Shown one piece after another: positions 6,480-56,664 of a stretch of 56,804 bases of DNA. A model generated the notes under the pieces. That model was not told the origin of the DNA and made no database searches. It was given only the letters and a program-made list of their open reading frames with translations. Source of the DNA: a virus; IMG/VR virus record IMGVR_UViG_3300035034_002337, positions 1 through 56,804 of that record. One strand, given 5' to 3'. Numbering within the stretch: the first letter of the stretch is position 1; each line of letters opens with the position of its first letter. The translations under genes were made by a program, and so were the position numbers.

Positions 6480-6507
6480 AAATAGACAAACTTGAATAGT
6501 TATTGTT

Positions 6508-6993: not shown

Positions 6994-6999
6994 ACTTAA

Positions 7000-21368: not shown

Positions 21369-21788
21369 ATGTCAACAGTAGCAAATAATGGTATTTCAAT
21401 AGAGCGATCTTCACTTTCTACGTCACTGGTGGATCGATATTCCACGTGGAATAGTCCAGAGAGTATGCGTGGTAAGGCAGCTCCGGGTGTTAATTTCATG
21501 AGTGACAATTACGTTAAAGGATTTACACCCAACATGCAATTGGGAGCGTCTGACATTCGAAATATAGGTAAAGGGGGAAGTGGGGCATCGTTTCTATATG
21601 GAAACGAGAATAAGATTCCCAGAGAAGTTTCTGATGTTATTACACAGACATATAACGCTGGACCCGCCAATTCAATTCAAGATGAATTTAAAAGTCGTCC
21701 ACAACAAGGACAAACACGGTTTACATCAAAGGGATTAAACTACATTGACTCGATACATGGGTTTAGCAATATACCGTATTTTAGATAA
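21369..21788 (+). CDS. Unassigned structural-type protein
   Basis: 139 residues, Gly/Ser/Asn-rich with low hydrophobicity (NNGISIERSSLSTSLVDRYS, GASDIRNIGKGGSGASFLYG). It looks extended, like a linker or adaptor in the tail. It ends the long tail block; its stop overlaps the ATG of the GIY-YIG-like gene by one base. No family recognised. Confidence 0.5.
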   Translation: MSTVANNGISIERSSLSTSLVDRYSTWNSPESMRGKAAPGVNFMSDNYVKGFTPNMQLGASDIRNIGKGGSGASFLYGNENKIPREVSDVITQTYNAGPANSIQDEFKSRPQQGQTRFTSKGLNYIDSIHGFSNIPYFR

Positions 21789-22222
21789 TGGGTACGTTCG
21801 ACTGGGGTCATTGGTCCCCTCCACAGGGAGTAGATTGTATTCCACCCGACACACTTGGCTTTTTATATAAGATTACCCACAGAAAAACCAACAGGTTTTA
21901 CGTTGGAATAAAACAAGTCTCAAAGCAAATCAAGCGACCACCACTCAAAGGGAAAACCCGAAAGCGGAAACATATAGTTGATTCCGACTGGCGGAAATAT
22001 TGCTCGTCATCTGGTGAGATTGCAGAAGATATTAAACAAAACGAGTCCGACTATGCGTTTGAGATTTTATCGTTCCATCCATCAAAATCATTGTTGAAAT
22101 ACGCCGAAGCAGAGTTTCTAGTTACTCACAATTGTCTGTTTGATACAAATTGCTTTAATCAGATGTTTAATTACCGACTTCGATTTTCGAAGTTAAGCGT
22201 TATTAAAACGAATCATTGCTAG
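21788..22222 (+). CDS. GIY-YIG-like nuclease
   Basis: 144 residues. The opening GFLYKITHRKTNRFYVGIKQ corresponds to the GIY-YIG core strands (GFLY for GIY, YVG for YIG), followed by DWRKYCSSSGEI and a glutamate in YAEAEFLVTH where the catalytic Glu is expected. Such short GIY-YIG proteins in T4-like phages are often free-standing homing nucleases of the Seg type. The N-terminal 24 residues precede the domain. It starts right at the stop of the previous structural gene and its 3' end overlaps the convergent spike gene by 30 nt, which is consistent with insertion between two modules. Confidence 0.65.
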   Translation: MGTFDWGHWSPPQGVDCIPPDTLGFLYKITHRKTNRFYVGIKQVSKQIKRPPLKGKTRKRKHIVDSDWRKYCSSSGEIAEDIKQNESDYAFEILSFHPSKSLLKYAEAEFLVTHNCLFDTNCFNQMFNYRLRFSKLSVIKTNHC

Positions 22223-26287: not shown

Positions 26288-26313
26288 AAAATAGAATACT
26301 ATAGTTATATGAT

Positions 26314-26919
26314 ATGGGAAAAAACTTAAATATCGTTCATGATTGGCTTAAAGGAAACAACCTACGTCCAACATCCATAAATTTTGTTACCGACAAATCT
26401 GAGCTTGAGAAAAAGAAAAATGATATGTTAATCGGTCAGAAGTATTCTGATGACGATGGTAAAGAATGGGAAAAAACTACATACGGATGGACCTCAGTTC
26501 CCAAGGTATTGTCAGCGATAAAAGAGTCGAATCCACATTGCACAGTATGTCAAAAAGAAATTGATTTTCATAATAAGCAAGATTCACGAGCATACTCCCA
26601 CACAAAAATGTGTTTTGATTGTATGATTGATATGGACACAACGCGAAAACTACAGGGTTCGTTTAAAAACTTCGAGCAAATTTATGTGTTCAAGAAACAG
26701 CGGGACTTTGTGAAATCTACACTTCAAGACCTAAATGAAGCCTTACTAGCGTTGGAGAAACAATCCGCTATTGAGTTTATAAATGAATTTGGGGATAGAG
26801 AAAAATGGTCTGGTTTAAGCCCTGAAAAAATTAAACAGGATGTAATGAGAGACATAACCGAAGGTGAACAGGTTTTGTTAGACATAAATGACCAACTTTC
26901 TAAGTTAGATGCCAAGTAA
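26314..26919 (+). CDS. Putative small terminase subunit or terminase partner
   Basis: 201 residues. It has a zinc-binding-type set of cysteines (CTVCQKEID about residues 71-79, MCFDCMID about 97-104) and then about 90 residues of coiled coil (FVKSTLQDLNEALLALEKQ...). The stop codon overlaps the start of the large terminase by 11 nt. Small terminase subunits usually lie just upstream of the large one and have helical cores, so this is the best candidate; the zinc site is not typical and leaves the identity open. A TATAGTTAT variant of the late motif ends 5 nt before the ATG. Confidence 0.5.
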   Translation: MGKNLNIVHDWLKGNNLRPTSINFVTDKSELEKKKNDMLIGQKYSDDDGKEWEKTTYGWTSVPKVLSAIKESNPHCTVCQKEIDFHNKQDSRAYSHTKMCFDCMIDMDTTRKLQGSFKNFEQIYVFKKQRDFVKSTLQDLNEALLALEKQSAIEFINEFGDREKWSGLSPEKIKQDVMRDITEGEQVLLDINDQLSKLDAK

Positions 26920-27487
26920 ACAAGACATTAAAAAGGCGATCAAGGTAGAGTATATTCGATGCTCGCAAGACCCTGCGTATTTCATGGAGAAATATTGTAA
27001 GATCCAACATCCATCACGAGGAACTATTCCGTTTAAACCGTACGAATTCCAAAAAAACGCGGTGCGTGAGTTTAGAGACAATTCAAAGAACATTATTTTA
27101 AAGTGTCGTCAGATGGGTATTTCTACGTTGAGTGCTGGATATTCATTGTGGTTGATGACATTTCAGAAGGATAAAAGTATTCTAGTCATCTCAACAAAGC
27201 AAGAAGTTGCAAAGAATATGATAACAAAAGTTCGCTTTATGAACGACAATCTACCGTCGTGGCTTAAAGTGAAAGAAACAGAAAACAATCGAACTAGCTT
27301 GCGATTAGAAAACGGATCGGCAATCAAGGCAGTTTCTGCCAGTGGAGACGCAGGTCGATCAGAAGCTCTCAGCTTACTTATTATGGACGAGTGTCAAGAC
27401 CACACAGCCCACATTTGTGTACGAAATAAATTCACAGATGAAATAAAAGACATTGCAATTGGCGATTTTTTTGATACTATATCATAG
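26909..27487 (+). CDS. 17: Terminase large subunit, N-terminal half + N-intein
   Basis: 192 residues. Residues 1-161 are the first part of the gp17 ATPase domain: Q-motif region EFQKN (46-50), Walker A CRQMGIST (66-73) and Walker B LLIMDE (156-161). Right after the Walker B glutamate, Cys162 opens a 31-residue N-intein that ends at a TAG stop. The expected next extein residues (CAFID, as in T4 DECAFI) occur in the gene starting at 29266. The two products must be joined by protein trans-splicing to make a working packaging motor. A homing endonuclease gene lies between the two halves. Confidence 0.9.
   Translation: MPSKQDIKKAIKVEYIRCSQDPAYFMEKYCKIQHPSRGTIPFKPYEFQKNAVREFRDNSKNIILKCRQMGISTLSAGYSLWLMTFQKDKSILVISTKQEVAKNMITKVRFMNDNLPSWLKVKETENNRTSLRLENGSAIKAVSASGDAGRSEALSLLIMDECQDHTAHICVRNKFTDEIKDIAIGDFFDTIS
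27392..27484 (+). mobile_element. Split intein, N-part (31 residues)
   Basis: It starts with Cys1 directly after the Walker B glutamate and has the intein block A pattern (VRNKFTDEIKDIAIGDFF: turn, then I-x-D/G-DF). It ends at the gene's stop codon. A 31-residue N-part with a long C-part is the rare, non-canonical split known for AceL-TerL (25 + 104 residues, from memory). Confidence 0.88.
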
Positions 27488-27490
27488 AAT

Positions 27491-29269
27491 ATGATAATTG
27501 AATGCAAAATATGCTCACAAAAATTTTCGTCTTTTAAGGGACTTTCAGCTCACATTAAACGACATAACATTCTACGTGAAGACTATCATGTTTCGTATGT
27601 TCAACCGAGACCATTATGTTCCTGTGGAAAACAAACAAAGTTTATTTCGTTGGAATTGGGGTTTCGTCAGTTTTGTTGTCCGAAATGTATGGCAAACTCA
27701 GAAATAACACAGAACAAGAAGATACAAACTTGCTTAAACAACCTCGGAGTAGAGTTCCCAGCACAAAGTTCGACGGTCAAAAACAAAAGGTCACAAACCT
27801 GCATTGAAGCTCACGGGCATCCACATCCGATGCAAAGTGATACCATCAAGAAAAAAATACAAGAAACCAATAAAAAGCGGTTTGGTTGTATTTCACCACT
27901 TGGTAATACCGATATACGAAAAAAGTCAAAGTTGACATGTCAACGGAAATATAACGTAGAACACAATTTTTGCGAGGGTGACCTTCGAGACAAAATCAAA
28001 CAAACTTTCGTAAAAAAATACGGCTGTGAAAATCCGATGCAAAATACAGAGGTTCATAAAAAGGCGGTACAAACATTAGTGAAGCATCACGGAGTAGATA
28101 ACCCAATGAAAAGTGATACTATTCGAAAAAAAGCACAGGCAACCTGCCTTACTAATCACGGAGTAACAAATCCAATGCACAGTTCCGTGATTAAATCTAA
28201 GTGTTCGTTTACGAAGCAACAGGCGGTTGTACACGAAATGTTTTTTGGTAATAGACTCGGAAAAACTATAGTTCCACTGTTCACAGAAAAAGAATTTACA
28301 TCAGGTAAAGACAAGCGATACAAGTTTGTATGCAACACATGCAACACCGAATTCACGTCTTATATTCAAAACGGAAACATTCCACGCTGTTATACATGTC
28401 ACCCAATTTTACGTGGGACATCTAACATCGAAAAGGAGTTATTTGAGTTTATTAAACAATTGGACGATTGTGCAGTACAAGGAACGAAATCAATTATACC
28501 TCCACTAGAACTTGATATTTTTTCTGAAAAATTTAAATTGGCATTTGAAATTAATGGGTTATATTGGCACTCTGAGATAGGCGGGAACAAGACAAATACT
28601 TATCATGTGCATAAAACGAACGAATGCAACAAACGAAACATTCAACTAGTCCACATATTCGAAGACGAGTGGGTACACAAAAGATTGATTATTCAAAACA
28701 AGATTAAGTCATTGTTTGGCTCACAACAAAAGTCAATCGGGGCAAGACAAACAAACATTCACCCAATTTCCGCTGCCGTAGCAAAACGGTTTCTTAACGA
28801 CAATCATATTCAGGGATATTCAAGTTCAAGACATTATCTTGGTATGTTTTTTGATTCTGATCTAATTTCAGTTCTTTCGTTCGGTCAAAGTAGATTTCAA
28901 GCAGGTGAGTTGGAAATTATTCGTTACTGTTCTACCGTTCCAATAACAGGTGGATTTCAAAAATTTCTAAAATATATACAAACAAAATTTAGAATTTCTA
29001 GGATAGTTACATTCGCAGATAAGCGATTTTCTGGCACGAACAATGTTTATACCAGATCAAACTTTAAACTAATAAGCGAAACCACACCATCATACTTTTA
29101 CACTGACTATTCTCAGAGATTTTATCGGATGCAATTTCAAAAACACAAATTAAGTCGAAAGTTGGCTATATATAAGGATACTTTATCAACATGGCAAAAT
29201 ATGCAACTGAATGGATACGACAGAATATGGGATTGTGGGAATTATAAATACGAATACTCTTTTCAATGA
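27491..29269 (+). CDS. Free-standing homing endonuclease, VSR-like (HE1)
   Basis: 592 residues, lying exactly between the two terminase halves. Order: a perfect C2H2 zinc finger (Cys5, Cys8, His21, His25); a second Cys-rich segment; six or more 26-residue repeats of the type K-x-T-x6-G-V-x-NPM-x-S, likely DNA-binding; a zinc ribbon (CNTC ... CYTC); a VSR-like nuclease core near residues 338-395 (LELD, FEINGLYWHSE, IFEDEW); and a C-terminal domain ending in NGYDRIWDCGNYKYE. It fits the EDxHD homing endonucleases described with fractured genes and split inteins. It starts 3 nt after the N-half stop and its stop overlaps the C-half ATG. Presumably it spreads the intein/fracture site. Confidence 0.85.
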   Translation: MIIECKICSQKFSSFKGLSAHIKRHNILREDYHVSYVQPRPLCSCGKQTKFISLELGFRQFCCPKCMANSEITQNKKIQTCLNNLGVEFPAQSSTVKNKRSQTCIEAHGHPHPMQSDTIKKKIQETNKKRFGCISPLGNTDIRKKSKLTCQRKYNVEHNFCEGDLRDKIKQTFVKKYGCENPMQNTEVHKKAVQTLVKHHGVDNPMKSDTIRKKAQATCLTNHGVTNPMHSSVIKSKCSFTKQQAVVHEMFFGNRLGKTIVPLFTEKEFTSGKDKRYKFVCNTCNTEFTSYIQNGNIPRCYTCHPILRGTSNIEKELFEFIKQLDDCAVQGTKSIIPPLELDIFSEKFKLAFEINGLYWHSEIGGNKTNTYHVHKTNECNKRNIQLVHIFEDEWVHKRLIIQNKIKSLFGSQQKSIGARQTNIHPISAAVAKRFLNDNHIQGYSSSRHYLGMFFDSDLISVLSFGQSRFQAGELEIIRYCSTVPITGGFQKFLKYIQTKFRISRIVTFADKRFSGTNNVYTRSNFKLISETTPSYFYTDYSQRFYRMQFQKHKLSRKLAIYKDTLSTWQNMQLNGYDRIWDCGNYKYEYSFQ

Positions 29270-29607
29270 ACAACATACTATACAAAACAAATAGCAGCTG
29301 GGAAATATTAACACCGTCAGGATTTTCTTCATTTGCAGGTATTAAACGCACAAACAATAAAGATGTGTTGGTGATATCGTTTACGGACGGTAGTTCATTG
29401 ACTTGTACCGAAAATGAGCTATTCAAGTTTGAAAATGGAAAATTTTTGGAAGCGTGCCATCTACAACCAACAGACACTATCCAGTCTAAAAATGGGTATA
29501 AAACCGTCCAAACTGTGTCTGATCCCTGTGAGCAAACAAGTGTGTTTGGAATTGATGGAGTAGACTTGAACTCCGAATATTTTGTAAACGATGTTGTAGT
29601 TCATAAT
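29266..29607 (+). mobile_element. Split intein, C-part (114 residues)
   Basis: It begins with the gene's ATG and ends in the canonical HN before Cys+1. The segment ILTPSGFSSFAGI resembles the AceL-TerL C-intein as I recall it. The block B position reads TENELF, where a His is expected in most inteins. Confidence 0.85.
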
Positions 29608-31947
29608 TGTGCGTTTATTGACAGAGCCGATGAAATCTGGACGTCTGTTCAGTCGGCGTTAACACATGGTGGTGGTAATGCGATTTTGTTATCATGTGTA
29701 ACAAAAAACACTTTGGTGTATACCAATAACGGAATTCGTGAAGTGAACGACTTCGTAATTCCAGAGCGTACAAACGGATACGAGGTAAGCAAATACTCTG
29801 TATTAGGTAAAGATAGTTTACGTGATGGGAATATATTTTATAACAACGGGATAGTCCCAACCAATATAATAGAGTCTAAATTCTCGGAAATAGAGTGTAG
29901 TGAAAATCATAAATTATGGGCATACTCAACCAAAAATAAAGCTTTTGGATGGTTTACATCGAATGAACTTACAACAAACGACTATATTTCAATTCAATTT
30001 GGAAAAAATATCTGGAATGTAGACACCCCCGTGCATTCAGCAATTCTTGATATATCACCAAGTTTAGCTTCAAAAATTGATGAGGTTTGTTATTTGTTGG
30101 GTGTGTGTGCTACCACGGGAAAATTTGACACTGTGGGAAGGCTTATTCTTGAACGAAACACCAACACGCTTCGTTGTATACGAAGTCTTGGAGTGATGTA
30201 TGATGAAACCAACGAATATATTTGTTTACCACAAAATGACCTAAAAAACATGTGTATTCGCTTACATATGATGAGTTCACCAAACACATTTAAATCAACA
30301 TTGTCAACTTCATTATTATCACTATCTAAAAGTGAAATGTATCACTTTATTCGTGGGGTGTTGCAATTTAACCCAACACAAGATATGAATATGATTTCGC
30401 AGAAATTATCTGCTGCTCTTGCCAAACAATGTAGAGTAATTTTGTTGAACTTCGGAATTCTGTCTACAATTACCATCGACGGTGACATGGCCCAACTATA
30501 TACACGTATGGAACTACATTCATACGTTTCAACCAAAGATTATAATGTTCGGCTTGGTACATATGACACGGTTATACCCAACACAAAATCATTAGTTCGT
30601 CAGTTGATAGTAACGGACGAAGATATGACATTTATCGAGAAAGAACATGATGCGGATTTGTCTTATACATTAGATATTATTTCGGACGATATGCCGCACA
30701 GTTTAATGTGTCGAGTACTTAACGGATTTGGAAATCAATTGCACAGTAAAGAGTTTGACCGCTGGAAACATATTATTTCCAAAAACGTAATTTGGGATAA
30801 AATACAGAAAGTTACAAAATCCGAAAATGAAACGTTTGACTTCTCGTTACCACACGACAGTTCGGACGCTATGTGCCACTCAGTTATTTACAATGGAATA
30901 ATCGGCCACCAAACACCAAATGGAATGGGTAACTTCTTTCATAAAATGTGGGAAGAGTCTGAGCAGGGAGTTCAGAAGTTTAATACCATTAAACTACATT
31001 GGTCACTTCATCCAGAATACGACCAAGCTTGGAGAGATGAGCAAGATGAGCTATTAGGCCCAAGAATGGCCGCACAAGAATGTGATTGTGACTTTATATC
31101 ATCAGGAAACTCGGTAGTTGACATGAACATATTAGAGTGGTACAAAGATCGGCTAGTTAAAGAACCAATTTCCAAAGAGTATGTTGATCAAGGTTACTGG
31201 AAATGGGCCGCTCCTAGTTACATAAAAGATTACATTGTGTCGGCAGACGTTGCACGTGGTGACGGTGAGGATTATTCAACGTTTCATGTGTTGGACGTAG
31301 AAACTATGGAACAGGTGGCCGAATATAAGGGTAAACTGGACACCGATCAATTTGGTAATTTCTTAGTGCAGGTAGCAACCGAATGGAACGATGCTCTTCT
31401 TATTATAGAAAATTCATCGATTGGGTGGGCCGTTATACAACAGGTTATAAACAGAGGATACAAAAATCTATTTTATATGATGGAAGACCTTCGATATGTT
31501 GATGCTGACATGAAGGTGAACAATAAATGGAACACCAAAGAAAAACGCAAGGTTGCTGGGTTTACCATGTCAGCACGAACCCGGCCACTTGTAATTTCCA
31601 AGATAGACTTGTGTTTTCGAGAAAAGTCCGTAATCATTCACTCAGCACGCACCATCGGAGAGTTGCGAACCTTTATATGGCATAATGGGAGGGCTCAAGC
31701 TGCAACGGGTTATAATGACGACTTAACAATGGCACTTGGAATTGGTTTGTGGATATTCGATACAGCGTTGGTACTTCGGAATACTTCGATGGAGTCACAA
31801 AAGAAAGCATTATTGGGAATCGGAAAGACAGCTTACCAGTCGGATGGAATTTATATACCGTCTCGTTTTTCAAATCATGTTAAAAGTGATCCGTATTTAG
31901 TTCGCGTTGGAAAGGGGATAGACGAAGACCTTCGCTGGTTACTTTAA
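29266..31947 (+). CDS. 17: C-intein + terminase large subunit C-half with second intein
   Basis: 893 residues. Residues 1-114 are the C-intein (ending VVVHN), then the extein resumes with CAFIDRADEIW. Residues 144-549 are a second, contiguous intein. After it, TPNGMGNFFHKMW continues the ATPase domain, and the RNase-H-like nuclease follows with acidic residues in DYIVSADVARGDGEDYS, LLIIENSSIG and YNDDLTMALG. Once joined to the N-half and stripped of both inteins the terminase would be roughly 535 residues, near T4 gp17 (610). The ATG overlaps the endonuclease stop (ATGA), so translation is probably coupled. Confidence 0.88.
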   Translation: MNNILYKTNSSWEILTPSGFSSFAGIKRTNNKDVLVISFTDGSSLTCTENELFKFENGKFLEACHLQPTDTIQSKNGYKTVQTVSDPCEQTSVFGIDGVDLNSEYFVNDVVVHNCAFIDRADEIWTSVQSALTHGGGNAILLSCVTKNTLVYTNNGIREVNDFVIPERTNGYEVSKYSVLGKDSLRDGNIFYNNGIVPTNIIESKFSEIECSENHKLWAYSTKNKAFGWFTSNELTTNDYISIQFGKNIWNVDTPVHSAILDISPSLASKIDEVCYLLGVCATTGKFDTVGRLILERNTNTLRCIRSLGVMYDETNEYICLPQNDLKNMCIRLHMMSSPNTFKSTLSTSLLSLSKSEMYHFIRGVLQFNPTQDMNMISQKLSAALAKQCRVILLNFGILSTITIDGDMAQLYTRMELHSYVSTKDYNVRLGTYDTVIPNTKSLVRQLIVTDEDMTFIEKEHDADLSYTLDIISDDMPHSLMCRVLNGFGNQLHSKEFDRWKHIISKNVIWDKIQKVTKSENETFDFSLPHDSSDAMCHSVIYNGIIGHQTPNGMGNFFHKMWEESEQGVQKFNTIKLHWSLHPEYDQAWRDEQDELLGPRMAAQECDCDFISSGNSVVDMNILEWYKDRLVKEPISKEYVDQGYWKWAAPSYIKDYIVSADVARGDGEDYSTFHVLDVETMEQVAEYKGKLDTDQFGNFLVQVATEWNDALLIIENSSIGWAVIQQVINRGYKNLFYMMEDLRYVDADMKVNNKWNTKEKRKVAGFTMSARTRPLVISKIDLCFREKSVIIHSARTIGELRTFIWHNGRAQAATGYNDDLTMALGIGLWIFDTALVLRNTSMESQKKALLGIGKTAYQSDGIYIPSRFSNHVKSDPYLVRVGKGIDEDLRWLL
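29695..30912 (+). mobile_element. Contiguous intein with degenerate LAGLIDADG domain
   Basis: 406 residues from Cys (in LLSCVTKNTLVY) to Gln (in IIGHQ), inserted before Thr of the conserved TPNG coupling motif. Splicing blocks are visible: block A (TLVYTNNGIREV), block B (ECSENHKLW) and the end VIYNGIIGHQ. The middle has the two-motif layout of a LAGLIDADG nuclease (YLLGVCATTGKF and FIRGVLQFNP), but the acidic catalytic residues are replaced, so the nuclease is probably dead. The final residue is Gln, not Asn. Confidence 0.85.
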
Positions 31948-31960
31948 AATAAACTCACCA

Positions 31961-31969
31961 TATATTTAT
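31961..31969 (+). promoter_or_regulatory. Late-promoter-like motif, 4 nt before ATG
   Basis: TATATTTAT, spacer TTGT, then ATG 31974, in the 26-nt gap after the terminase. Confidence 0.6.
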
Positions 31970-31973
31970 TTGT

Positions 31974-32243
31974 ATGGACGTTCGTCACTTTATCACAGAG
32001 GAAATCGCAGATCAAATTTTAAAAGTTTCAGATCAATCTAACAAGGTCAAACGATCAATAGAAACGTACGAATCTGAAACTGACGAAACTGCTAAGGTTA
32101 AGAAGCGGATGTTGGCTGAAAAAGAAAAGCAGAAATTGTATAAACTTCAAGTAGAATTACTAAAAGAAAAAGTCGCAGCGTCCAAATCTCAAATGGCCGA
32201 AATGTCGGTTCGCCTTAAAATTCTACAACAGAGAGATAACTAA
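31974..32243 (+). CDS. Small coiled-coil protein between terminase and portal
   Basis: 89 residues, almost entirely helical with Lys/Glu heptads (KKRMLAEKEKQKLYKLQVEL). It ends directly before the portal ATG (no gap). Its place suggests a role in packaging or portal assembly. No family recognised. Confidence 0.55.
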   Translation: MDVRHFITEEIADQILKVSDQSNKVKRSIETYESETDETAKVKKRMLAEKEKQKLYKLQVELLKEKVAASKSQMAEMSVRLKILQQRDN

Positions 32244-35081
32244 ATGGACCAAGACGTAAGTGTTTTAAAACGGCTGAAAAAGTTATTTTCGACCGATATT
32301 ATAGTTAGAAATGTTGGTGGAAAAAAGCTAAAAGTAGTTGACACCGAACGAGTTCAATTCGCAACTGATCGAAATTCGCTGCGGGATAGATTCAATCGAC
32401 TACGCAGTTCGACATACAACGTTCATAATCGTGACATGTCAATGTCATATCAAGCAGCTCGACTAGAGCTGTTTAGAGATTACGACTGTGTAGGTGAGAA
32501 TACCGTAATTCCTTTACCAGACGGGTCTTTTCCAACTATTAAAGAATTGACTGAGAAGTATAAAGACCTTCCACAAGAACGATTTTTTGTATTTTCCTAT
32601 GATCACGATTCCGACTCTATAAAATTAGGGAAAGCATACCACCCCCGAAAAAAGGGTGAACGGCATGGATATCAAGTAACGTTTGATGACGGTAGTTCTG
32701 TTATAGGTAGTTTAAAGCACCCGTTTATAATGAGAGATGGTGAAAAGAAGAGACTTTTTGAATTAAGAGTTGGTGACTCTGTAATGCCGTTTTATCAAAG
32801 AGAATATGGACATAACGAACACGGAGTCAACCCATATAGACAAGTGTATAACCTTGCCAATGGATGGCAACCCGAGCATCATGTGATTGCGGAACAGTTT
32901 TGTGGACCGGATATTACAAATAAAGTTATTCGTCACAAAAATTTTAATGGTTCAGACAATTCACCTGACAATTTGATTCCCGTGGAAAAAGGAGATGATA
33001 AGTATGACAATCAGTTGAACAAATTGGCGTCAACTGAAAACTACAAAACCCGAGAAATACATAAATTGGGTGAACAGCTAAAAAGTAAAAAGAATCCCTT
33101 TTGTGAAAAGTCGCCCACTGACGAGTTAAACGAAACAACTCTAACGCATATAGAAGATGTTACATTTGAAAATGTAAGAGAAAAAGCGTTAGAATTTTAC
33201 AATGAATACTCTAACATAAATTTAGAAGAGTTTTTGAATCACATAAATTGTGACAGAAGCACAGTAATTAACCGACTAGAAACACGAGATCATAATTGGA
33301 AAACGTTTGGTGATACTGTAGAAACCACATTAAACCATAAAATTGTAGACATTAAATTTATCGGAATGACTGACGTTTATGACGTTACGGTTGAGAAATT
33401 TGAGAACTTCGCAACAGAGTGTTGTTTTGTTGGAAATACGATGGACATGGACCCTATATTGGCTTCTGCACTAGACATCATTTCCGATGAGTCAACCACA
33501 GACAATGAATTTGGTCAATCGTTGTTGATTCGAAGTGAAGACGACAACATAAAATCAATTTTAGAGAACCTATTTTATGAAATCCTGAACATCGACTTTA
33601 ACTTGTGGTCATGGGTACGAAACATCCTAAAATACGGAGATTTCTTTCTAAAGTTAGATATATCACCAGAATATGGTGTTTTCTCGGTTCAGCCGCTAAG
33701 TCCTTACGAAGTTACCCGTATTGAAGGTGTTGACCCAACAAATAAAAACTACGTAAAGTTTCAACACGATGGCCAATACGGAGGACAAGAGTATGAAAAC
33801 TATGAAATAGCTCACTTTAGATTGTTGTCGGACTCAAACTTTTTACCATATGGACGTTCTCACCTAGAGCCAGCACGTCGTGTTTGGAAGCAGTTGACAT
33901 TAATGGAAGATGCTATGTTGATAAATCGGATCATGCGGGCACCAGAACGTCGTATTTTTTATATTGACATCGGAAACATTGCCCCGAACGAAGTTGATCC
34001 TTACATGGAGAGACTGATCGCACAAATGAAAAAGGTTCCGTATATTGACGACAAAACTGGTGATTATAATTTGAAGTTTAATTTACAGAACATGATAGAA
34101 GACTTTTACTTGCCAGTACGCGGTGGTGATAGTGGAACTAAAATAGAAAATCTAGGTGGTTTAGAGTGGACAGGAATTGATGACTTGGAGTATGTTAAAA
34201 ATAAGATGATGGCGGCTTTGAAAGTGCCAAAGGCGTTTTTGGGATACGATGAAAGTATTGGTGGAAAGTCAACATTGGCGGCGGAAGACGTTAGATTCGC
34301 TAGAACGATCCAACGCATACAAAAGATTATTGTGTCTGAACTATATAAACTCGCAGTTATTCATTTGTATGTTCAAGGGTTCACAGACTCATCACTTGTT
34401 AATTTTGAGCTTAAATTGACCAACCCGTCAACTATATTTGAACAAGAGAAAGTCGCATTGTGGGGAGATAAAATGTCAGTCGCTAATGACATGGTTGATA
34501 GTAAGCTTTTCTCACCTGAATGGGTTTATAGCAAGATTTTCGATCTATCACAAGAACAGATTAACGAAATGCAAACACAGGTAATCAATCACTCTAAGTC
34601 TATTTATAGAATAGAAACCATCGAGAGTGACGGAACCGATCCAGCTGAACAAGAAAATCGTATCGAATCTCCAGATGACCAAAATTCAGACGATATTGAT
34701 GATGCTGATGGTATGGCAGGGTTTGATGGTGGTAATGACTTTGATGGTGGATTGTTTGAAGGTGAAGTTCCAGAAAAAGGTGAAGACAATCGGCCCGACG
34801 ACGTAAAAAAAGAGCAAGATAAAAAGCAGTCAACTGTAACTACATATGGGTTATCCGACAGAAGATCTGATGCTAATACAAAAGACGCGGACCCTCTAGG
34901 AACTAGAGATAGAACTGTTCATAAAAAAACAAGCACACATAAAGACAAGCGGTTTACAGCGGACCGATTGAAAAACTTTACCCGACCTGAAATGGGGTCT
35001 ATACTAGACGAAATAAACTCGATTAACAAAGCGTTTAACTCAGCCAATCGTGCTCACAAAGGTAAAAAGAAAATAGTTTAG
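32244..35081 (+). CDS. 20: Portal protein gp20 interrupted by an intein
   Basis: 945 residues: a 628-residue portal plus a 317-residue intein. The portal forms the dodecameric gate in the head vertex through which DNA is packed. Family features: the N-terminal YQAARLELFRDYD, joined after splicing to TMDMDPILASALDI, then PYGRSHLEPARRVWKQLTLMEDAM, INRIMRAPERRIFYIDIGN and DEIRF-type helices (GGKSTLAAEDVRFARTIQRIQ). The C-terminal 150 residues are acidic and then Lys-rich. The gene follows the small coiled-coil protein with no gap and precedes head genes, as in T4. Confidence 0.92.
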   Translation: MDQDVSVLKRLKKLFSTDIIVRNVGGKKLKVVDTERVQFATDRNSLRDRFNRLRSSTYNVHNRDMSMSYQAARLELFRDYDCVGENTVIPLPDGSFPTIKELTEKYKDLPQERFFVFSYDHDSDSIKLGKAYHPRKKGERHGYQVTFDDGSSVIGSLKHPFIMRDGEKKRLFELRVGDSVMPFYQREYGHNEHGVNPYRQVYNLANGWQPEHHVIAEQFCGPDITNKVIRHKNFNGSDNSPDNLIPVEKGDDKYDNQLNKLASTENYKTREIHKLGEQLKSKKNPFCEKSPTDELNETTLTHIEDVTFENVREKALEFYNEYSNINLEEFLNHINCDRSTVINRLETRDHNWKTFGDTVETTLNHKIVDIKFIGMTDVYDVTVEKFENFATECCFVGNTMDMDPILASALDIISDESTTDNEFGQSLLIRSEDDNIKSILENLFYEILNIDFNLWSWVRNILKYGDFFLKLDISPEYGVFSVQPLSPYEVTRIEGVDPTNKNYVKFQHDGQYGGQEYENYEIAHFRLLSDSNFLPYGRSHLEPARRVWKQLTLMEDAMLINRIMRAPERRIFYIDIGNIAPNEVDPYMERLIAQMKKVPYIDDKTGDYNLKFNLQNMIEDFYLPVRGGDSGTKIENLGGLEWTGIDDLEYVKNKMMAALKVPKAFLGYDESIGGKSTLAAEDVRFARTIQRIQKIIVSELYKLAVIHLYVQGFTDSSLVNFELKLTNPSTIFEQEKVALWGDKMSVANDMVDSKLFSPEWVYSKIFDLSQEQINEMQTQVINHSKSIYRIETIESDGTDPAEQENRIESPDDQNSDDIDDADGMAGFDGGNDFDGGLFEGEVPEKGEDNRPDDVKKEQDKKQSTVTTYGLSDRRSDANTKDADPLGTRDRTVHKKTSTHKDKRFTADRLKNFTRPEMGSILDEINSINKAFNSANRAHKGKKKIV
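32487..33437 (+). mobile_element. Portal intein with HNH endonuclease domain
   Basis: 317 residues (portal residues 82-398) from Cys in DYDCVGENTVIPL to Asn in CCFVGN, with Thr as +1. Block A (NTVIPLPDGSFPTIKEL) and block B (GSLKHPF) are clear. The middle contains an HNH-type nuclease (EHHVIAEQFCG, VIRHKNFNGSDNSPDNLIPV). The penultimate residue is Gly, where most inteins have His. The insertion site is the conserved D/T-MDMDP junction of gp20. Confidence 0.88.
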
Positions 35082-35098
35082 CAATTACTAATCCCGCA

Positions 35099-35107
35099 CA
35101 TATTTAT
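35099..35107 (+). promoter_or_regulatory. Late-promoter-like motif
   Basis: CATATTTAT 32 nt before ATG 35140. With this spacing the transcript would have a leader, although no clear Shine-Dalgarno sequence is present. Confidence 0.5.
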
Positions 35108-35139
35108 AATAGACAACAGTTTATAATTAACATACTACG

Positions 35140-36018
35140 ATGAGCAAAATAAAACACAGTAAATTCAAGAACACAGCTATTTTGTTTGAGTTGTTGGTTA
35201 GACAAGTTACCGCCGACATTCTAAAAGGGACGGAACACTCCAAAGCAAATAAGATTCTACGCACGTTCTTTAAGGAAGAAACTGAATTAGGAAAAGAACT
35301 TAAGCTATACAATTTATTGATGAACGAGATAGCAAAAGACTCTGTTACTGCGGATAGAATAGTAGAAACCATTTTAAAGGCAAGAACTCGAATTAGAGGT
35401 GATAAGTTAGGGGCACAAAAATACAACTTAATCAAAGAAATCAAAACCAATTACCCAATTGATGATTTTCTTCGTGGAAAAATCTCTAACTATAAATTAA
35501 TGGCTTCAATTTATAAGCTGTTTGAAAGCTGTTCCGTAGAAGATTCTGATACGGCTGACCTAATTCAAAATCGGGAGATTATTTGCGAATCGCTGTTACG
35601 CTCCGGGCCAAAGGAAAAGTCAACCGAGGAAAAAGATAAATTGATCGAATCGTATGAGAAGCAAACAAATGATCTAAAGGTGCTGTCACACAAACTATTG
35701 GTTGACTCGTTCAATAAGAAGTATAGTTCATTCAACACAAAACAGAAAGTACTACTACGAGAGTTCATAAACAATGTTAGTAACACCAATTCATTAAAAG
35801 CGTATATTAACGCAGAGATTCCGAATATTCAATCTCAACTACAAGAAATATCACAAAAGTCAAATGACACGGTTATTAAAATCAAGATCACCGAAACTTG
35901 TAATCAACTTGGTACTCTACAAAAAGGAAAAGTAACTAAAGATTCTCATATATTATCATTATTGCTATCGTACGAGCTTATCAAAGAAATGAAACTCATC
36001 CTAAATGACAAAACGTAA
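35140..36018 (+). CDS. Conserved-type head-region protein, function unknown
   Basis: 292 residues, helical and charged. The N-terminal KHSKFKNTAILFELLVRQVT is a strongly patterned motif that I have seen in unnamed proteins beside gp20/gp21 of marine myoviruses. Its location between portal and prohead protease suggests a head-assembly or core role. The 3' end overlaps the next gene by 14 nt. Confidence 0.55.
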   Translation: MSKIKHSKFKNTAILFELLVRQVTADILKGTEHSKANKILRTFFKEETELGKELKLYNLLMNEIAKDSVTADRIVETILKARTRIRGDKLGAQKYNLIKEIKTNYPIDDFLRGKISNYKLMASIYKLFESCSVEDSDTADLIQNREIICESLLRSGPKEKSTEEKDKLIESYEKQTNDLKVLSHKLLVDSFNKKYSSFNTKQKVLLREFINNVSNTNSLKAYINAEIPNIQSQLQEISQKSNDTVIKIKITETCNQLGTLQKGKVTKDSHILSLLLSYELIKEMKLILNDKT

Positions 36019-37334: not shown

Positions 37335-38975
37335 ATGACAGAGTTGCAACGTGTTATAACAAATTTATTTTGTGTTAAAGGTAAATTGGTATCAAAGCGA
37401 TGCACCGCGTCGTGGATTTCTAAATTCTGTCCAGAGCAGTACAATAGCTGGGTACAAACCATACCATTCTCAGTGGCTAATTTTTCGGTTCCTCAGATCA
37501 TTTGGCATATCTTTTATTCCAAACCTGTTCCGAGTTGTATTTCGTGTGGAGGTAACGTAAAATTCAAATCATTTCAGAATGGATATAATGACACATGCTG
37601 CAATAAATGTGCTCAACACAATCCAGCTACTATCGCTAAAATCCAGACGACAAATATAAATCGATACGGAAAACCGTATGGACTTCAAGCAACAGAGATC
37701 AAGCGAAAATCAGTAAACAGCTGTGTTCATCGGTATGGAGTACAAAATATTTCTCAGTACGAACCAGTAAAACAGCAAAAACGTCAAACCTGTAATACAA
37801 ACTTTGGAGTTGATTATTACTTATCAAAACACGATGCGGTATCCGAGGCGTTCTTTAAAAAGCACAAAGTTTACAACGCATCGTTCGTGGAAGAGTTTCT
37901 TGATAAGCGAAGAGCAACAAAACGTTCCGACTTTTATGATAGATTATACAACTCAAATCGATTGCAAGGAAACTGTATTCCATTGTTCACAAAGGACGAG
38001 TATGTTAAAAATGGTTATTACTTCAATTATAAGTTTAAGTGTGTAACGTGCAACTCGGAATTTGTAGACTGCTTAGAAGACGGTGACATTCCTCGTTGCC
38101 CAACCTGCTTTACATCAAAATCACAATTTGAAACTGAGGTTGGGTTGTTCGTTCAATCTATTTATAATCAACAGATTGTTTTTAATGACCGAGCTGTTCT
38201 AGGTGGAAAAGAACTAGATATTTTATTGCCTATGGCAAACATAGCAATTGAATGTAATGGGTTATTCTGGCACTCGGAGCACAACGGCAAGTCAAAATAT
38301 TACCACGCACGAAAATCCGAGGATTGCTTATCCGCTGGAATCCGACTAATCCATATTTTTGAAGATGAGTGGATGCTACAAAAAAACATTGTACAGTCAT
38401 TTCTATCGAGCCTATTGATCAGCCAGCCAGTAATAATGGCACGTAAAACAGTTGCCAAGGAAATCTCAAGTCGAGAAGCAATCACATTTCTAAATAATCA
38501 CCACTTTCAAGGTGCCGACAACTCTTCTATAAAAGTTGGGTTATTTGTTGATGATAAACTACTCTCGGTTCTTACGGTTGGTAAGGATCGCTTTTCTAGG
38601 TCGAAATCAAGCGAAATATACAGGTTTTGTTCGATAGTTGGGGTAACAGGTGGGTTATCTAAAATGTTGAAATTTATTCATCGAAATCATAGTATATCAA
38701 GCTTTGTCACGTATTGCGATCTTTCTAAGTTCGACGGCCAAGTTTATTTGAAAAATGGATTTTCATTGATAAAAAAATGTGAACCAAGTTATCAATACTT
38801 TTCACGAAAAAGGTATTTTCGTCAACACCGATTTAATTTCAGGAAGTCACAACTTCACAAAAAACTCGAACACTTTGATCCATTGTTATCGGGTCACGCT
38901 AACATCACAAATCATGACTATTTCAGGATTTGGGATTGTGGGAATTTGAAGTTCGAGCGGACGTTTAATGACTAA
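37335..38975 (+). CDS. Homing endonuclease, VSR-like (HE2)
   Basis: 546 residues, same family as HE1. Order: an N-terminal region with two Cys pairs (CISCGG, CCNKC), two or three weak G-V repeats (RYGKPYGLQ, RYGVQNISQ, NFGVDYYLS), a zinc ribbon (CVTC ... CPTC), nuclease core near residues 290-345 (KELD, IECNGLFWHSE, IFEDEW), and the C-terminal domain ending YFRIWDCGNLKFE. Fewer repeats than HE1, so its target must differ. It lies after gp21, which appears complete, so this copy does not split a gene that I can see. Confidence 0.82.
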   Translation: MTELQRVITNLFCVKGKLVSKRCTASWISKFCPEQYNSWVQTIPFSVANFSVPQIIWHIFYSKPVPSCISCGGNVKFKSFQNGYNDTCCNKCAQHNPATIAKIQTTNINRYGKPYGLQATEIKRKSVNSCVHRYGVQNISQYEPVKQQKRQTCNTNFGVDYYLSKHDAVSEAFFKKHKVYNASFVEEFLDKRRATKRSDFYDRLYNSNRLQGNCIPLFTKDEYVKNGYYFNYKFKCVTCNSEFVDCLEDGDIPRCPTCFTSKSQFETEVGLFVQSIYNQQIVFNDRAVLGGKELDILLPMANIAIECNGLFWHSEHNGKSKYYHARKSEDCLSAGIRLIHIFEDEWMLQKNIVQSFLSSLLISQPVIMARKTVAKEISSREAITFLNNHHFQGADNSSIKVGLFVDDKLLSVLTVGKDRFSRSKSSEIYRFCSIVGVTGGLSKMLKFIHRNHSISSFVTYCDLSKFDGQVYLKNGFSLIKKCEPSYQYFSRKRYFRQHRFNFRKSQLHKKLEHFDPLLSGHANITNHDYFRIWDCGNLKFERTFND

Positions 38976-44167: not shown

Positions 44168-47107
44168 ATGGCAATTCAAGAAGGTGGGCGTTGGAGCCCA
44201 CAAGAAAAAATCGTTAGCCCCGGTGTATTTACACGAGAAAATGACCTCTCGTTTTTACCACAGGGAATTTCAAACATCGGTGGTGCTGTTGTTGCACCGT
44301 TTCCTAAAGGACCAGCATTTTCTCCCACACTAATCGAAAGTATTGGTGATCTGGAAACTTTGTTTGGGGTTGCAGACGGTAAATATTATGGCCCATATTC
44401 TGCAAAAGAGTATATACGAAGTCAGGGACGAGTTACCGTGATTCGCGTTGGAGGATTGGGTGGGTATGTTCAGAAAAACCCATTAATTTTATACGCAACT
44501 GAAACGATTACTGCTACACGTTCCTTGGCAACCAGCAGCCTTACTGGTGCTAAATTAACGTCGTGCACCGTAGAGGAAGTTTCTGGTGATTACACGTTTG
44601 TTGGCTCGTTGCAAGGAAAATGGGTTGACGGAGTAAATGAAGACAGAACTGAGGTAGTTGGTCGTATCACATTTACTGTGCCTGCGATAAGTGCGTCATT
44701 GAACGCTGGACGGTTTGCAACAGGCACAACCAACGGAACAGTTGCGATCACGGACTTTATTCTTCCGTCAAGCGGTGTTGTATCAACTGAAAAGCTTAGT
44801 GTTACACGGTCTAGCTCTGGTGTGTATACACTAACGGGTATTGGTGTAGAAACATTAAAAGTATCTGGACCATACGGCAGCCTAAACTTTGCAGCTGCGA
44901 CACCGAAACCTGACGGTGAAAAGCGTGTGCTTGCTGTGTTAGCAAATACCGCATACGACGTGGGTGAAAATTGGGAAGGATTTAGTGGTTCTGTATTGTC
45001 AACTGTTACAACATTTACTGATAAATTCGACGTATCATTAAAGTCAAATGGTTCCCCAATTGGAACGTATTCATTCTCGATTGATCCAACTAACAAAGCG
45101 TTTATTACAAACGTATTCGGCACAACTCCAACCGCCGGGCAACTACCAGTTGCAACGGGAGTTAGACCTGACGTAGCGTATGTATATAGATACTTCGAGA
45201 ATGCAATGTCCGAGGTTTGGAACGAAATGTCAAATAATGGTAAATGGAAAATTTCGTTAGAAAGCACCGACACGGGTGACCTTTCAATGGAATTTGATGA
45301 TGGTGTTCCCGGAGGTGGCGGCGGCGATAACGACGCAGCTTGGAGTTCGTATGATATTAGCTCTGCACACACCCCATGGGTAACGTCACAGCGAACTGCA
45401 CCTTGGTCAGGAACCAGTGGCACAGCAGTTTCACAATCATTCGAGTTATTTAAGTTTCATACGATTAGTCATGGCACAAACATGAACACTTCGTATAAAG
45501 TTGAAATCTCAAATGTTAAAAATGCAGAAGCAATCGCAGGATCAGAATATCCAGAATTCGACGTCTCTATTCGTGCATATAATGACACAGATCACAAACC
45601 TGTTATTTTGGAATTTTATCCAAAATGTAACTTAAACCCAAACTCGGTCAACTTTGTTGCTAGAAAAGTTGGGGATGCCCACCGTAGAATCAATTTCAAT
45701 GGAAAGGTTATTGAGTTTGGAGAGTTTGGAAATCAAAGTCGGTACGTTCGAGTTGAAATGACAGAATCTCCATATCCACAAGGTGCGATGCCATATGGAT
45801 TTAAAGCGTTTACCACGCCAATTGGTGGAGATTACGCGGAATACATTCCATCTATTCGGTATGGAACTGCGTCAAAGTACAGTCGAAATTTGGGAAGATA
45901 TCCATCGGGTGTGGTATTCAATGCCGCACCAGTGGGTGCAGATGACGAATTATCTGGACTGTATCCAGAAAACGCCGAACGGGACAACAAGCAATACAAC
46001 GCTGCCATCCCCATGAACTCAAGTATCGGAGCCAACGCTGACTTTGACCTAGAGTCTGATGTAGGTGTACAATCTGGATACGACGCCATTAACGAATCTG
46101 ATAACGCAAGACAGAGAAAATTCATTTTTGGATTCCAAGGTGGATTTGATGGTCAATCACCAGCACGACCTGTGCTAACGGGTGATGAAATTACACCAAG
46201 TAATCAGCAAGGATTGAATTGTTTGGATATAACATCGTCTGGTTCGGTTGGATATAAAAATTCTGTGGCAGCTTTGTCTAACGCAGATGAAATTGATATT
46301 AACTTGATCTGGACCCCCGGAATCATCTATAACTATCACCCATACGTCGTAAAGACCGTGGTTGATATGTGTGAATCCCGAGGCGACTGTTTCTATATAT
46401 TCGACACATTCCAAAATCAAGTCGCTGGTGGACGCTCTGTTCAAAACGTAGTTAATAAGGCTGCGGAGTTTGATACAAGCTATGCCGGAACATATTACCC
46501 TTGGGTTAGAATCGTTGACACAAACACGAATCGTGTTATTAAAGTACCACCGTCGGTAGTTATGCCGTCAGTGTACGCTCAGTCAGATAGATCATCCGCT
46601 GAATGGTTTGCTCCAGCAGGACTAAACCGTGGTGGAATCGAAATCGCAAAAAGTGTGGTGGACAAGCTTACCCACACAGAACGTGATATTCTATATGAGG
46701 GACGTGTTAATCCGATTGTTTCGTTTCCCGGCCAAGGCGTTTCCGTTTGGGGCCAAAAAACATTGCAGGTACAGCCAAGTGCATTAGACCGAATAAACGT
46801 TCGTCGTTTGCTTATTGCAGTTAAGAAGTACATTGCTTCGACGTCCAAGTTCTTGGTGTTTGAAGGTTCGACTGCTGTAACACGAAATCGATTCCTAAGC
46901 GTTGTTAATCCATACTTAGAATCAATTCAACAGCGGAATGGCTTGTATGCGTTTCGCGTCGTAATGGATTCAAGTAACAACGGACCAAGTGAGATTGATA
47001 GAAACATTCTATATGGTCAGATTAGCTTGCAGCCAACAAAGACATCGGAGTTAATTTTACTTGACTTTAATGTGCTACCAACAGGTGCAACGTTTGACGG
47101 TGTTTAA
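44168..47107 (+). CDS. 18: Tail sheath protein gp18
   Basis: 979 residues, longer than T4 gp18 (659). The N-terminus has the sheath pattern: ENDLSFLPQGISNIGGAVVA, PFPKGPAFSPTLIES, then the YYGPYSAKEYIRSQGRVTVIRV segment. The C-terminal domain is the conserved one: IYNYHPYVVKTVVDMCESRG, WVRIVDTNTNRVIKVPPSVV, the FAPAGLNRGGI segment, INVRRLLIAVKKYIAS and QISLQPTKTSELILLDF. The extra length is in the middle (about residues 110-620), as surface-exposed variable domains. Sheath rings contract to drive the tube into the host. A terminator follows. Confidence 0.93.
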   Translation: MAIQEGGRWSPQEKIVSPGVFTRENDLSFLPQGISNIGGAVVAPFPKGPAFSPTLIESIGDLETLFGVADGKYYGPYSAKEYIRSQGRVTVIRVGGLGGYVQKNPLILYATETITATRSLATSSLTGAKLTSCTVEEVSGDYTFVGSLQGKWVDGVNEDRTEVVGRITFTVPAISASLNAGRFATGTTNGTVAITDFILPSSGVVSTEKLSVTRSSSGVYTLTGIGVETLKVSGPYGSLNFAAATPKPDGEKRVLAVLANTAYDVGENWEGFSGSVLSTVTTFTDKFDVSLKSNGSPIGTYSFSIDPTNKAFITNVFGTTPTAGQLPVATGVRPDVAYVYRYFENAMSEVWNEMSNNGKWKISLESTDTGDLSMEFDDGVPGGGGGDNDAAWSSYDISSAHTPWVTSQRTAPWSGTSGTAVSQSFELFKFHTISHGTNMNTSYKVEISNVKNAEAIAGSEYPEFDVSIRAYNDTDHKPVILEFYPKCNLNPNSVNFVARKVGDAHRRINFNGKVIEFGEFGNQSRYVRVEMTESPYPQGAMPYGFKAFTTPIGGDYAEYIPSIRYGTASKYSRNLGRYPSGVVFNAAPVGADDELSGLYPENAERDNKQYNAAIPMNSSIGANADFDLESDVGVQSGYDAINESDNARQRKFIFGFQGGFDGQSPARPVLTGDEITPSNQQGLNCLDITSSGSVGYKNSVAALSNADEIDINLIWTPGIIYNYHPYVVKTVVDMCESRGDCFYIFDTFQNQVAGGRSVQNVVNKAAEFDTSYAGTYYPWVRIVDTNTNRVIKVPPSVVMPSVYAQSDRSSAEWFAPAGLNRGGIEIAKSVVDKLTHTERDILYEGRVNPIVSFPGQGVSVWGQKTLQVQPSALDRINVRRLLIAVKKYIASTSKFLVFEGSTAVTRNRFLSVVNPYLESIQQRNGLYAFRVVMDSSNNGPSEIDRNILYGQISLQPTKTSELILLDFNVLPTGATFDGV

Positions 47108-47162: not shown

Positions 47163-47215
47163 TGCGTTAGCGGTTGACTTTTCCGGTATTTTGCATATGT
47201 AGTAGTTATAGTTAC

Positions 47216-48967
47216 ATGAATATACATTCTACCAAAGTTCAACAGCCGCTTCTACAGTTCATCGAACGCAACAAAGAGAACTTTTCTATTCAACTTAAAC
47301 GAAAATATCCGCGGTTGTATAGTAAAATAGAACACTTGGATGTAAATAAGAAGGTCGTTGAGAATCTATTCAATCTGATATATGGTTGTGATGCTGAACC
47401 GTGTATAATGTGTGGCTCACCGTGTGCGTTTGATGGATTCGTTAAAGGGTACAGAAAAACCTGTTCAGCTGTATGCAACGGTAAAGCACGAAAGCAGATT
47501 ACACGTGAACAGCGGGTGTGTGTTGTATGTAAAAAAGAGTTTGATGTATTGCGGAATAGACAAAAGCAATGCTGTTCACAAAAGTGTTTGTGTAGTCTTA
47601 TGCAATCCGACAAAGTTAAGCAAAAGCGGTTGGAATCCAATAAAAGATACAACCTACAAAAATTTGGGGTTGAATTTTATAGTCAAACGAACGAATTTTC
47701 AGACAAATTAAAGGCAACCAAGCAGCAGCGATATGGTGACGAAAACTACGTGAATGTTAGTAAAGCCAAAGAAACCAAGTTAAAGCGATACGGTAATGAA
47801 GGGTATGTTAATATAGACCAACATAAACAAACATGTTTGATGAGATATGGAGTGGACAACTTCTCTAAAACACAAAACTTCAAGCAAATCAACTATACCA
47901 AAGTTGCAGATAGGCTCGACCTTAATTCGTTAATCACACCGCTGTTTGATTTTAGAACATATCATGGATCAAACTCTCACTACAACTTTCAATGCAACCG
48001 CTGCCAAACGATATTTAAATATTCGGTTGCCAACGGAAAATTCCCAATTTGTCCTGTATGTGACAAAACCACGCACACGTTTGAGGTGGAGTTGGAAGAG
48101 TTTATAAAGTCGTTTTATTCGTTTCCATATGTTACCAACGATAGATCCATCATCGGCCCCAAGGAACTAGATTTCGTGTTTCCTCATCACAAGGTTGCGG
48201 TTGAATTTAACGGGGTTTATTGGCACTCCGAATATTCGGGAAATAAAAGTAAACGTTACCACATAAACAAAACAAACGCATGTTTGGAAAAGAATATAAC
48301 GTTAATTCACATCTTCGAAGATGAATGGATTTTAAAGAAGGATATTGTTAAATCAAAGCTCAAACACATTCTCTCACACGGCAACGAAAAGGTATATGCT
48401 AGAAACTGTTTGGTAAAGCTAGTCTCACCAAAGGACAAAAATATATTTCTCAATCAAAACCATATTCAGGGAGAAGATAAAAGCTTGGTCAAACTTGGAT
48501 TGTATCATAATGATGTTTTGATTTCAGTTATGACATTTGGAAAGCAGCGGCTTGCACTGGGTAATAAAACGAAGTCTTCTAATACGTTTGAGCTAATTAG
48601 ATTCGCGTCGTCCATACGAACTGTTGGTGGTGCGTCAAAGTTGTTGGCCCACTTCATTAAAGCATATGACCCACATAAAATAGTAACCTATGCTGACAAA
48701 CGGTATAGTACCGGAAATCTATATGAAAAAATTGGATTCACAATTGACTCGATAACACCACCGAATTATTGGTACTTTTTTGTAAATAGTAAAGTTAATA
48801 AACGATGGCACCGTTTCAAATTTAGAAAATCTGAACTTCCAAAACTACTTGATAATTTTGATCCAGTTCAAACTGAATGGCAAAACATGAAAAATAATGG
48901 GTATGACCGAATTTGGGACTGTGGGCATATAAAATATGTTTGGGATCGTGGTTCCACCGCGTCATAA
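47216..48967 (+). CDS. Homing endonuclease, VSR-like (HE3)
   Basis: 583 residues from ATG 47216 (an in-frame TTG at 47174 is unlikely). Same family as HE1. Order: N-terminal Cys-rich segment with two zinc-like pairs (CIMCGSPC, CVVCKKEF), then repeats (KFGVEFYSQ, RYGDENYVN, RYGNEGYVN, RYGVDNFSK), a zinc ribbon (CNRC ... CPVC), nuclease core near residues 315-370 (KELD, VEFNGVYWHSE, IFEDEW) and the C-terminal domain ending NGYDRIWDCGHIKY. It sits right after a terminator, between complete genes, so it does not visibly interrupt one. Confidence 0.85.
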   Translation: MNIHSTKVQQPLLQFIERNKENFSIQLKRKYPRLYSKIEHLDVNKKVVENLFNLIYGCDAEPCIMCGSPCAFDGFVKGYRKTCSAVCNGKARKQITREQRVCVVCKKEFDVLRNRQKQCCSQKCLCSLMQSDKVKQKRLESNKRYNLQKFGVEFYSQTNEFSDKLKATKQQRYGDENYVNVSKAKETKLKRYGNEGYVNIDQHKQTCLMRYGVDNFSKTQNFKQINYTKVADRLDLNSLITPLFDFRTYHGSNSHYNFQCNRCQTIFKYSVANGKFPICPVCDKTTHTFEVELEEFIKSFYSFPYVTNDRSIIGPKELDFVFPHHKVAVEFNGVYWHSEYSGNKSKRYHINKTNACLEKNITLIHIFEDEWILKKDIVKSKLKHILSHGNEKVYARNCLVKLVSPKDKNIFLNQNHIQGEDKSLVKLGLYHNDVLISVMTFGKQRLALGNKTKSSNTFELIRFASSIRTVGGASKLLAHFIKAYDPHKIVTYADKRYSTGNLYEKIGFTIDSITPPNYWYFFVNSKVNKRWHRFKFRKSELPKLLDNFDPVQTEWQNMKNNGYDRIWDCGHIKYVWDRGSTAS

Positions 48968-56539: not shown

Positions 56540-56548
56540 TTACTAAAA

Positions 56549-56664
56549 GTTTTACGATCTGTTTCTTTTAGTTTTTTTGGTATGACGGACTATACGCTCG
56601 TCACCTACAGCACGACAAAAGAACCCAGTTCTATTATTTTGCTGTAGTCGTTGACCATCACCAA
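56549..56664. repeat. Right copy of end repeat (TnpB 3' end)
   Basis: Same orientation as 1-116, three mismatches. It begins within 10 nt of the point where HE5 similarity stops, so its left border is probably the element's insertion edge. Confidence 0.85.

Follow-up and report, generated by a model that had tools for sequence, protein, structure and literature searches.

A large terminase gene fractured around an endonuclease with a Mom-like domain and bearing a short-N split intein in a viral DNA fragment

The large terminase gene (terL) of a 56.8-kb virus fragment from IMG/VR (IMGVR_UViG_3300035034_002337; the window below means all 56,804 nucleotides of it) is broken into two open reading frames (ORFs). 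The first closes with the N-terminal part of an intein (IntN), the second opens with its C-terminal part (IntC), and a free-standing endonuclease gene occupies the gap between them. The interpretation considered probable is that the two pieces carry a split intein of the S1 type, with a short N part, that the terminase protein (TerL) is joined by splicing, and that the nuclease in the gap is a homing element. The arrangement itself is already known from other phages; new relative to the known terL cases are the type of nuclease, which is fused to a Mom-like domain, and an intein active site in which Glu and Gly stand at two positions usually held by His and Asp.

All three ORFs lie on the + strand, namely TerL-N (26909-27487), the endonuclease (27491-29269) and TerL-C (29266-31947), and their parts are collected in Table 1. 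Residue 161 of TerL-N is the Walker B Glu, followed by a tail of 31 residues (C162-S192) and the stop codon; the endonuclease ORF begins 3 nucleotides past that stop, and its own end is overlapped by the start of TerL-C over 4 nucleotides (ATGA). TerL-C opens with 114 residues of intein, after which the extein resumes at CAFID, and is interrupted once more by a second, contiguous intein. The extein parts of 161, 29 and 344 residues align end to end with the unbroken TerL of relatives (loci L008 and L179), retain the packaging motifs and match T4 gp17 across the nuclease domain, and the two ORFs together give the whole protein. A preliminary description made from the sequence had proposed a terminase broken into two genes at these points, with a Vsr-like endonuclease gene set between the halves at these spacings, and this anatomy is upheld. 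As an alternative, an intein start at Cys170 (CVRNK) was considered and rejected, since it would leave an eight-residue extein insertion missing in relatives, and all 31 residues from Cys162 align ungapped to IntN of isolate phages. A structure model of TerL-C was poor across both inteins (mean predicted local distance difference test score, pLDDT, 49) and was set aside.

The break can be compared with relatives, here viral contigs fetched by TerL searches, among which 183 loci hold both TerL halves. The distance across both intein sites of the window is normal in 181 of them, and in locus L008 TerL reads without a break (LLILDE-CAFIDDADIIW...LLS-TPNG). One of the two exceptions, L179 (IMGVR_UViG_3300024262_003114), is the closest relative, with 71% identity over the TerL exteins and syntenic neighbours, and its terL is a single ORF that is unbroken at the site of the split intein. 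It does hold a TerL intein of the same family, but as a contiguous mini-intein of 144 residues at another TerL site (QECD/C...HN/CSF; slashes mark junctions of extein and intein throughout). As 181 loci are uninterrupted and L179 is unbroken there, terL is intact at the split-intein site in all near relatives, and members of the intein family occupy different TerL sites. The fracture is more than chance, because the TerL match of relatives breaks off right at ...DE and picks up again at CAFID, and because so many loci are uninterrupted. The search for an unbroken terL at the same site, suggested as a check in the preliminary description, came out in its favor. The other exception, L035, has a TerL intein at FSIN/C...SHQ/CVYLDEF (5902-8519 of that locus) with an HNH-like stretch and stops or frame changes, and may represent a further type of terL fracture or else an intein in decay.

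Both intein halves have recognizable homologs. IntC matches CatC (6dsl), an engineered consensus intein, and more weakly VidaL and gp41-1, and a tblastn search with it returned isolate phage records in which essentially all matches lie at the start of the terL C-half or within terL; short-peptide patterns recovered no relatives of IntC in viral contigs. IntN alone found no match in the PDB, as the sequence is too short for a database search, and its gapped alignments to L179 and to N parts of cellular type are weak; it is clear only with isolate sequences from the same site. Without gaps, it is identical to IntN of Campylobacter phage NCTC12673 at 11 of 31 residues (none of 200,000 shuffles scored as well), to that of VmeM-32 at 9 of 31 (p 1.5e-4 by shuffling) and to that of HY03 at 7 of 31 (p 8e-4 by shuffling). 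The NCTC12673 IntN is likewise exactly 31 residues long and likewise lies at the end of its ORF. In length, the 31 + 114 residues of the window agree with known short-N inteins (IntN about 25-37 residues, IntC about 104-115). The comparison with other TerL inteins that had been called for thus supports both halves, IntC through CatC and IntN through the inteins of the DE/CAF site. In a tree of IntC sequences the branches are long, including that of the window, which is placed only loosely; there is modest support for the window intein belonging with the DE/CAF-site group.

Table 1. Features of the fractured terL locus (positions in the window)
Feature	Positions	Strand	Evidence
TerL N-extein, 161 aa, ATPase Walker A to Walker B ...LLIMDE	26909..27391	+	Pfam Terminase_6N E 1.1e-5; phrog_5989 terminase large subunit E 6e-43; match of relatives stops exactly here
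IntN, 31 aa, CQDHTAHICVRNKFTDEIKDIAIGDFFDTIS	27392..27484	+	ungapped match to IntN of DE/CAF-site inteins
TAG stop of TerL-N	27485..27487	+	ORF reading
Endonuclease gene, 592 aa, intact	27491..29269	+	phrog_3339 homing endonuclease E 1e-117; DUF7487 E 4e-32; Mom E 9e-7
Nuclease core, residues 311-408, with E316, D342, E353, H360, E391/D392	28421..28714	+	family conservation
Mom-like GNAT domain, residues 411-592	28721..29266	+	Pfam Mom, above cut-off; Foldseek 8bv8; phmmer 8bv8
IntC, 114 aa, ending VVVHN, then CAFID	29266..29607	+	CatC E 1.7e-7; 90 isolate phage records
IntC Glu51 (GAG) at block B His position	29416..29418	+	His in 16/16 aligned relatives
IntC Gly95 (GGA) at block F Asp position	29548..29550	+	Asp or Glu in 16/16 aligned relatives
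TerL middle extein, 29 aa, CAFIDRADEIWTSVQSALTHGGGNAILLS	29608..29694	+	joined to both flanks in relatives such as L008, L179
Second TerL intein, contiguous, 406 aa, CVTKNT...IIGHQ/T	29695..30912	+	Pfam Intein_splicing E 4.7e-4, TIGR01445 E 9.8e-4, both below curated cut-offs
TerL C-extein, 344 aa, nuclease domain	30913..31944	+	matches T4 gp17 structures 3ezk/3cpe; 45-50% identical to TerL of relatives

The same intein family is found at the same DE/CAF site of TerL in many cultured phages with complete isolate genomes, and fractured terL of this general kind is present in dozens of cultured phages. Escherichia phage HY03, Yersinia phage phiR1-RT and Pseudomonas phage PspYZU05 agree with the window in site (IDE/C...HN/CAF), intein family, short IntN, and a free-standing endonuclease gene in the gap with overlapping gene edges. 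Their endonuclease, however, is a TnsA/Phage_endo_I-like protein of 199 residues, their block B His and block F Asp are present, and no second TerL intein was seen in them. At the same DE/CAF site, the nuclease of phiS (and, judged by layout, of JK32) is contained within the TerL-N ORF, so that in phiS the N-extein, IntN and nuclease form one ORF, and Vibrio phage VmeM-32 and phage SRB7757 carry a contiguous intein. In Campylobacter phage NCTC12673 (Fletchervirus; loci L265 and L282), IntC at this site is 36% identical to that of the window, but the two terL halves lie on opposite strands, separated by about 26 kb without an intervening endonuclease; the C-half is unannotated in the record of that phage. 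The preliminary description had valued the locus as a complete example that newly gives the genomic context. This does not hold, as many complete isolate genomes already have this intein family at the same TerL site, with terL fractured in HY03, phiR1-RT and PspYZU05 and dispersed in Campylobacter phages, and the finding is less exceptional than first rated.

The other known TerL split inteins with a very short N part, as in the window, are AceL-TerL (25+104), GOS-TerL (37+115) and the consensus Cat (30+104 aa), as compiled in a review (PMC11766414). The best CatC relative found, that of VP-1, sits at a QExD/C site and not at DE/CAF, so the insertion site of AceL and Cat probably differs from that of the window. 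VP-1 has a fractured terL at QExD/C, and so do K469 and 1.244, as judged from an N-ORF that contains a GIY-YIG domain and a following ORF that contains IntC. Of the earlier phrase "rare short-N type like AceL-TerL", the short N part and the kinship with AceL and Cat therefore stand, while rarity does not. The fractured genes of Dassa et al. 2009, as presented in the papers that cite them (PMC6892783, PMC12350094), combine a split host gene, split-intein halves at the break and a Vsr-like endonuclease in the gap, and the window resembles them in all of these.

From N- to C-terminus, the endonuclease comprises a C2H2-like finger, DUF7487 repeats, an EDxHD/Vsr-like nuclease and a Mom-like GNAT domain. 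In the nuclease core, D342, E353 and H360 are invariant in 24 family members, and E316 is conserved in 22. A profile built from 24 endonuclease relatives matches 3r3p, a mobile intron protein (I-Bth0305I), over the nuclease core (E 2.2e-8). The structure model of the endonuclease (pLDDT 86.7) has phage Mu Mom (8bv8) as its best fold match in the PDB (Foldseek E 9e-7), and a phmmer search with the Mom-like domain alone gave 8bv8 as the sole match (E 0.0064). These matches identify the protein as a predicted EDxHD/Vsr-type nuclease fused to a Mom-like GNAT domain; the preliminary description was right about the former and missed the latter. The other terL inteins sampled are associated with nucleases of TnsA-like, GIY-YIG/T5orf172 and HNH/MobE types, and the pairing of this nuclease with a split intein looks unusual, as far as a crude motif check of its 58 nearest relatives in viral contigs can show. 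Fusions of a restriction endonuclease (REase)-fold nuclease to a Mom-like GNAT domain are described from jumbo phages by Iyer et al. 2021 (PMC7824862), who predict a role in restriction-modification; the fusion type is the same, but in the part of that paper concerned with them no link to inteins is drawn, unlike in the window.

The C parts of 17 TerL inteins (that of the window and those of 16 relatives) were aligned to compare active-site residues, with 22 loci inspected. Of the residues expected of a class 1 intein, Cys1 (C162), the penultimate H113, the terminal N114 and Cys+1 are retained, and Glu51 and Gly95 are substitutions at block B and block F. The AceL, GOS and Cat group retains the block B His that the window does not have. 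A single misread base would account for neither substitution, since each codon is two or more changes away from the usual codons.

In the interpretation taken as probable, one transcript would yield TerL-N, the nuclease and TerL-C, the translation of TerL-C being aided by coupling at the ATGA overlap. IntN would dock into IntC, the split intein would excise through Cys1, the terminal HN and Cys+1 with joining of the exteins, the second TerL-C intein would excise in cis, and the product would be a TerL of 534 residues. The nuclease would act as a separate element, which by the usual logic of homing may cut an intein-free terL and be copied along with the flanking intein halves. The data establish the anatomy of the genes, their precise junctions, the homology of the two intein halves, the empty sites, the family and conserved residues of the nuclease, and the relatives at the same site; splicing, homing and any activity of the Mom-like domain are inferred. 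Four points weigh against this account: the window IntC is alone in lacking the His of block B and the Asp or Glu of block F, thereby departing from class 1 at both positions, which makes efficient splicing uncertain; the fragment is only part of a genome, and an intact second terL elsewhere is possible; by a crude motif check, no split intein flanks any of the 58 closest viral relatives of the endonuclease; and the published interpretation of Mom-nuclease fusions is restriction-modification (PMC7824862).

The last of these leads to a rival account, doubtful but deserving weight, in which the nuclease serves chiefly in the manner of restriction-modification, through Mom-like modification and the cutting of unmodified competitor DNA, and the intein gap is a safe harbor. 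The Mom-like domain is supported by three methods, such a role is what Iyer and colleagues predict for the fusions of jumbo phages (PMC7824862), and most relatives of the nuclease are free-standing, with five such genes in this fragment. Set against this, the gene is positioned precisely in the gap of the intein and has tight overlaps, like other terL endonucleases, and the nuclease matches a mobile intron protein (3r3p). Homing and restriction-modification are compatible roles and are not mutually exclusive. The fuller combination, in which the nuclease mobilizes the intein by cleaving intein-free terL and, through its Mom-like domain, also protects its own DNA from being cut, while the intein splices with its Glu/Gly active site, is rather improbable.

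It is unlikely, though a serious concern, that the intein is dead, in which case the substitutions would abolish splicing and the locus would be defective or dying, or TerL would work as two pieces held together non-covalently. Given Glu51 and Gly95, splicing cannot be taken for granted; these changes are not single read errors, the GDT-like motif of block A is altered too (C-QDHTAH), and the window IntC sits on its long branch. However, both extein parts and the reading frame are intact in an essential gene, the penultimate His, terminal Asn, Cys1 and Cys+1 are retained, and no second terL was found within the window fragment. The Tko CDC21-1 intein also lacks the block B His and splices through a compensating residue, which counts against a dead intein. 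As TerL is essential and its exteins are apparently intact, splicing is the better guess; that the split intein of the window splices TerL is considered likely, not assured.

An assembly or annotation artefact, or readthrough of the stop, would mean that there is truly one continuous intein with an inserted endonuclease. This is very improbable, even though TerL-N and the endonuclease ORF share a reading frame, separated by the TAG plus one codon, so that one suppressed stop would fuse both, and the N-extein, IntN and nuclease of phiS do share one ORF. TerL-C lies in another frame, and readthrough alone therefore cannot join all three ORFs. The length of IntN is identical to that of the independently encoded NCTC12673 IntN, isolate genomes show the same arrangement with two gaps, and TAG is a common stop in the window, ending 8 of the 44 ORFs of at least 100 residues. 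A recoded TAG was likewise rejected, as TAG is a normal stop there. An RNA-level intron of group I or II can hardly be credited, for although other phages are known to have terL introns accompanied by endonucleases (ICP1, PMC10448857), both flanks encode intein homologs, and no Rfam match to a group I or II intron was found down to E 5 over 26300-35200.

The second intein, which lies in TerL-C, went unmentioned in the preliminary description. Relatives are uninterrupted at its site (LS-TPNG), it has degenerate-looking motifs of LAGLIDADG type (YLLGVCATTGKF and FIRGVLQFNPTQ), and it seems to have kept the His of block B and the Asp of block F.

With these data, a third state joins the comparative series for a single codon in an essential gene of phages, where the site may be empty, hold a contiguous intein, hold one broken up around nucleases of unrelated types (TnsA-like, or EDxHD-Mom as in the window), or have the intein halves dispersed over the genome. 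As much of this same-site series is in cultured phages, it lets the origin of split inteins and the swapping of nucleases be tested. The Mom-like domain links two literatures, on homing in fractured genes and on Mom-nuclease restriction systems, and the unusual active site offers a direct test of the residues that short-N split inteins truly need.

Around the locus, the window has a recognizable phage gene order, as had been claimed: its packaging, head and tail genes are T4-like and include those for TerL, portal, prohead protease, tail sheath and PhoH. The portal gene (32244-35081) contains an HNH-type intein, a third intein besides the two in terL; the portal of L179 also has an HNH-type intein, but at a different portal site. 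Four further endonucleases of the phrog_3339 family lie at 37335-38975, 47174-48967, 53319-55076 (-) and 55073-56425 (-). The last two share a 4-nucleotide overlap; of these, the one at 55073-56425 looks truncated and has a disrupted stretch upstream at 56357-56653. A GIY-YIG (SegE-like) endonuclease gene lies at 21788-22222. The 979-residue tail sheath (44168-47107) matches sheath families over its C-terminal third only and not over its long N-terminal part. Among Campylobacter phages, the terL of CP21 (locus L277, 1032-5318) apparently has three inteins, one close to Walker A, one ahead of Walker B and one at DE/C, and a T5orf172 nuclease gene occupies one of the gaps between the pieces; an intein together with an intron has been reported in the terL of IBB_35 (PMC3322345).

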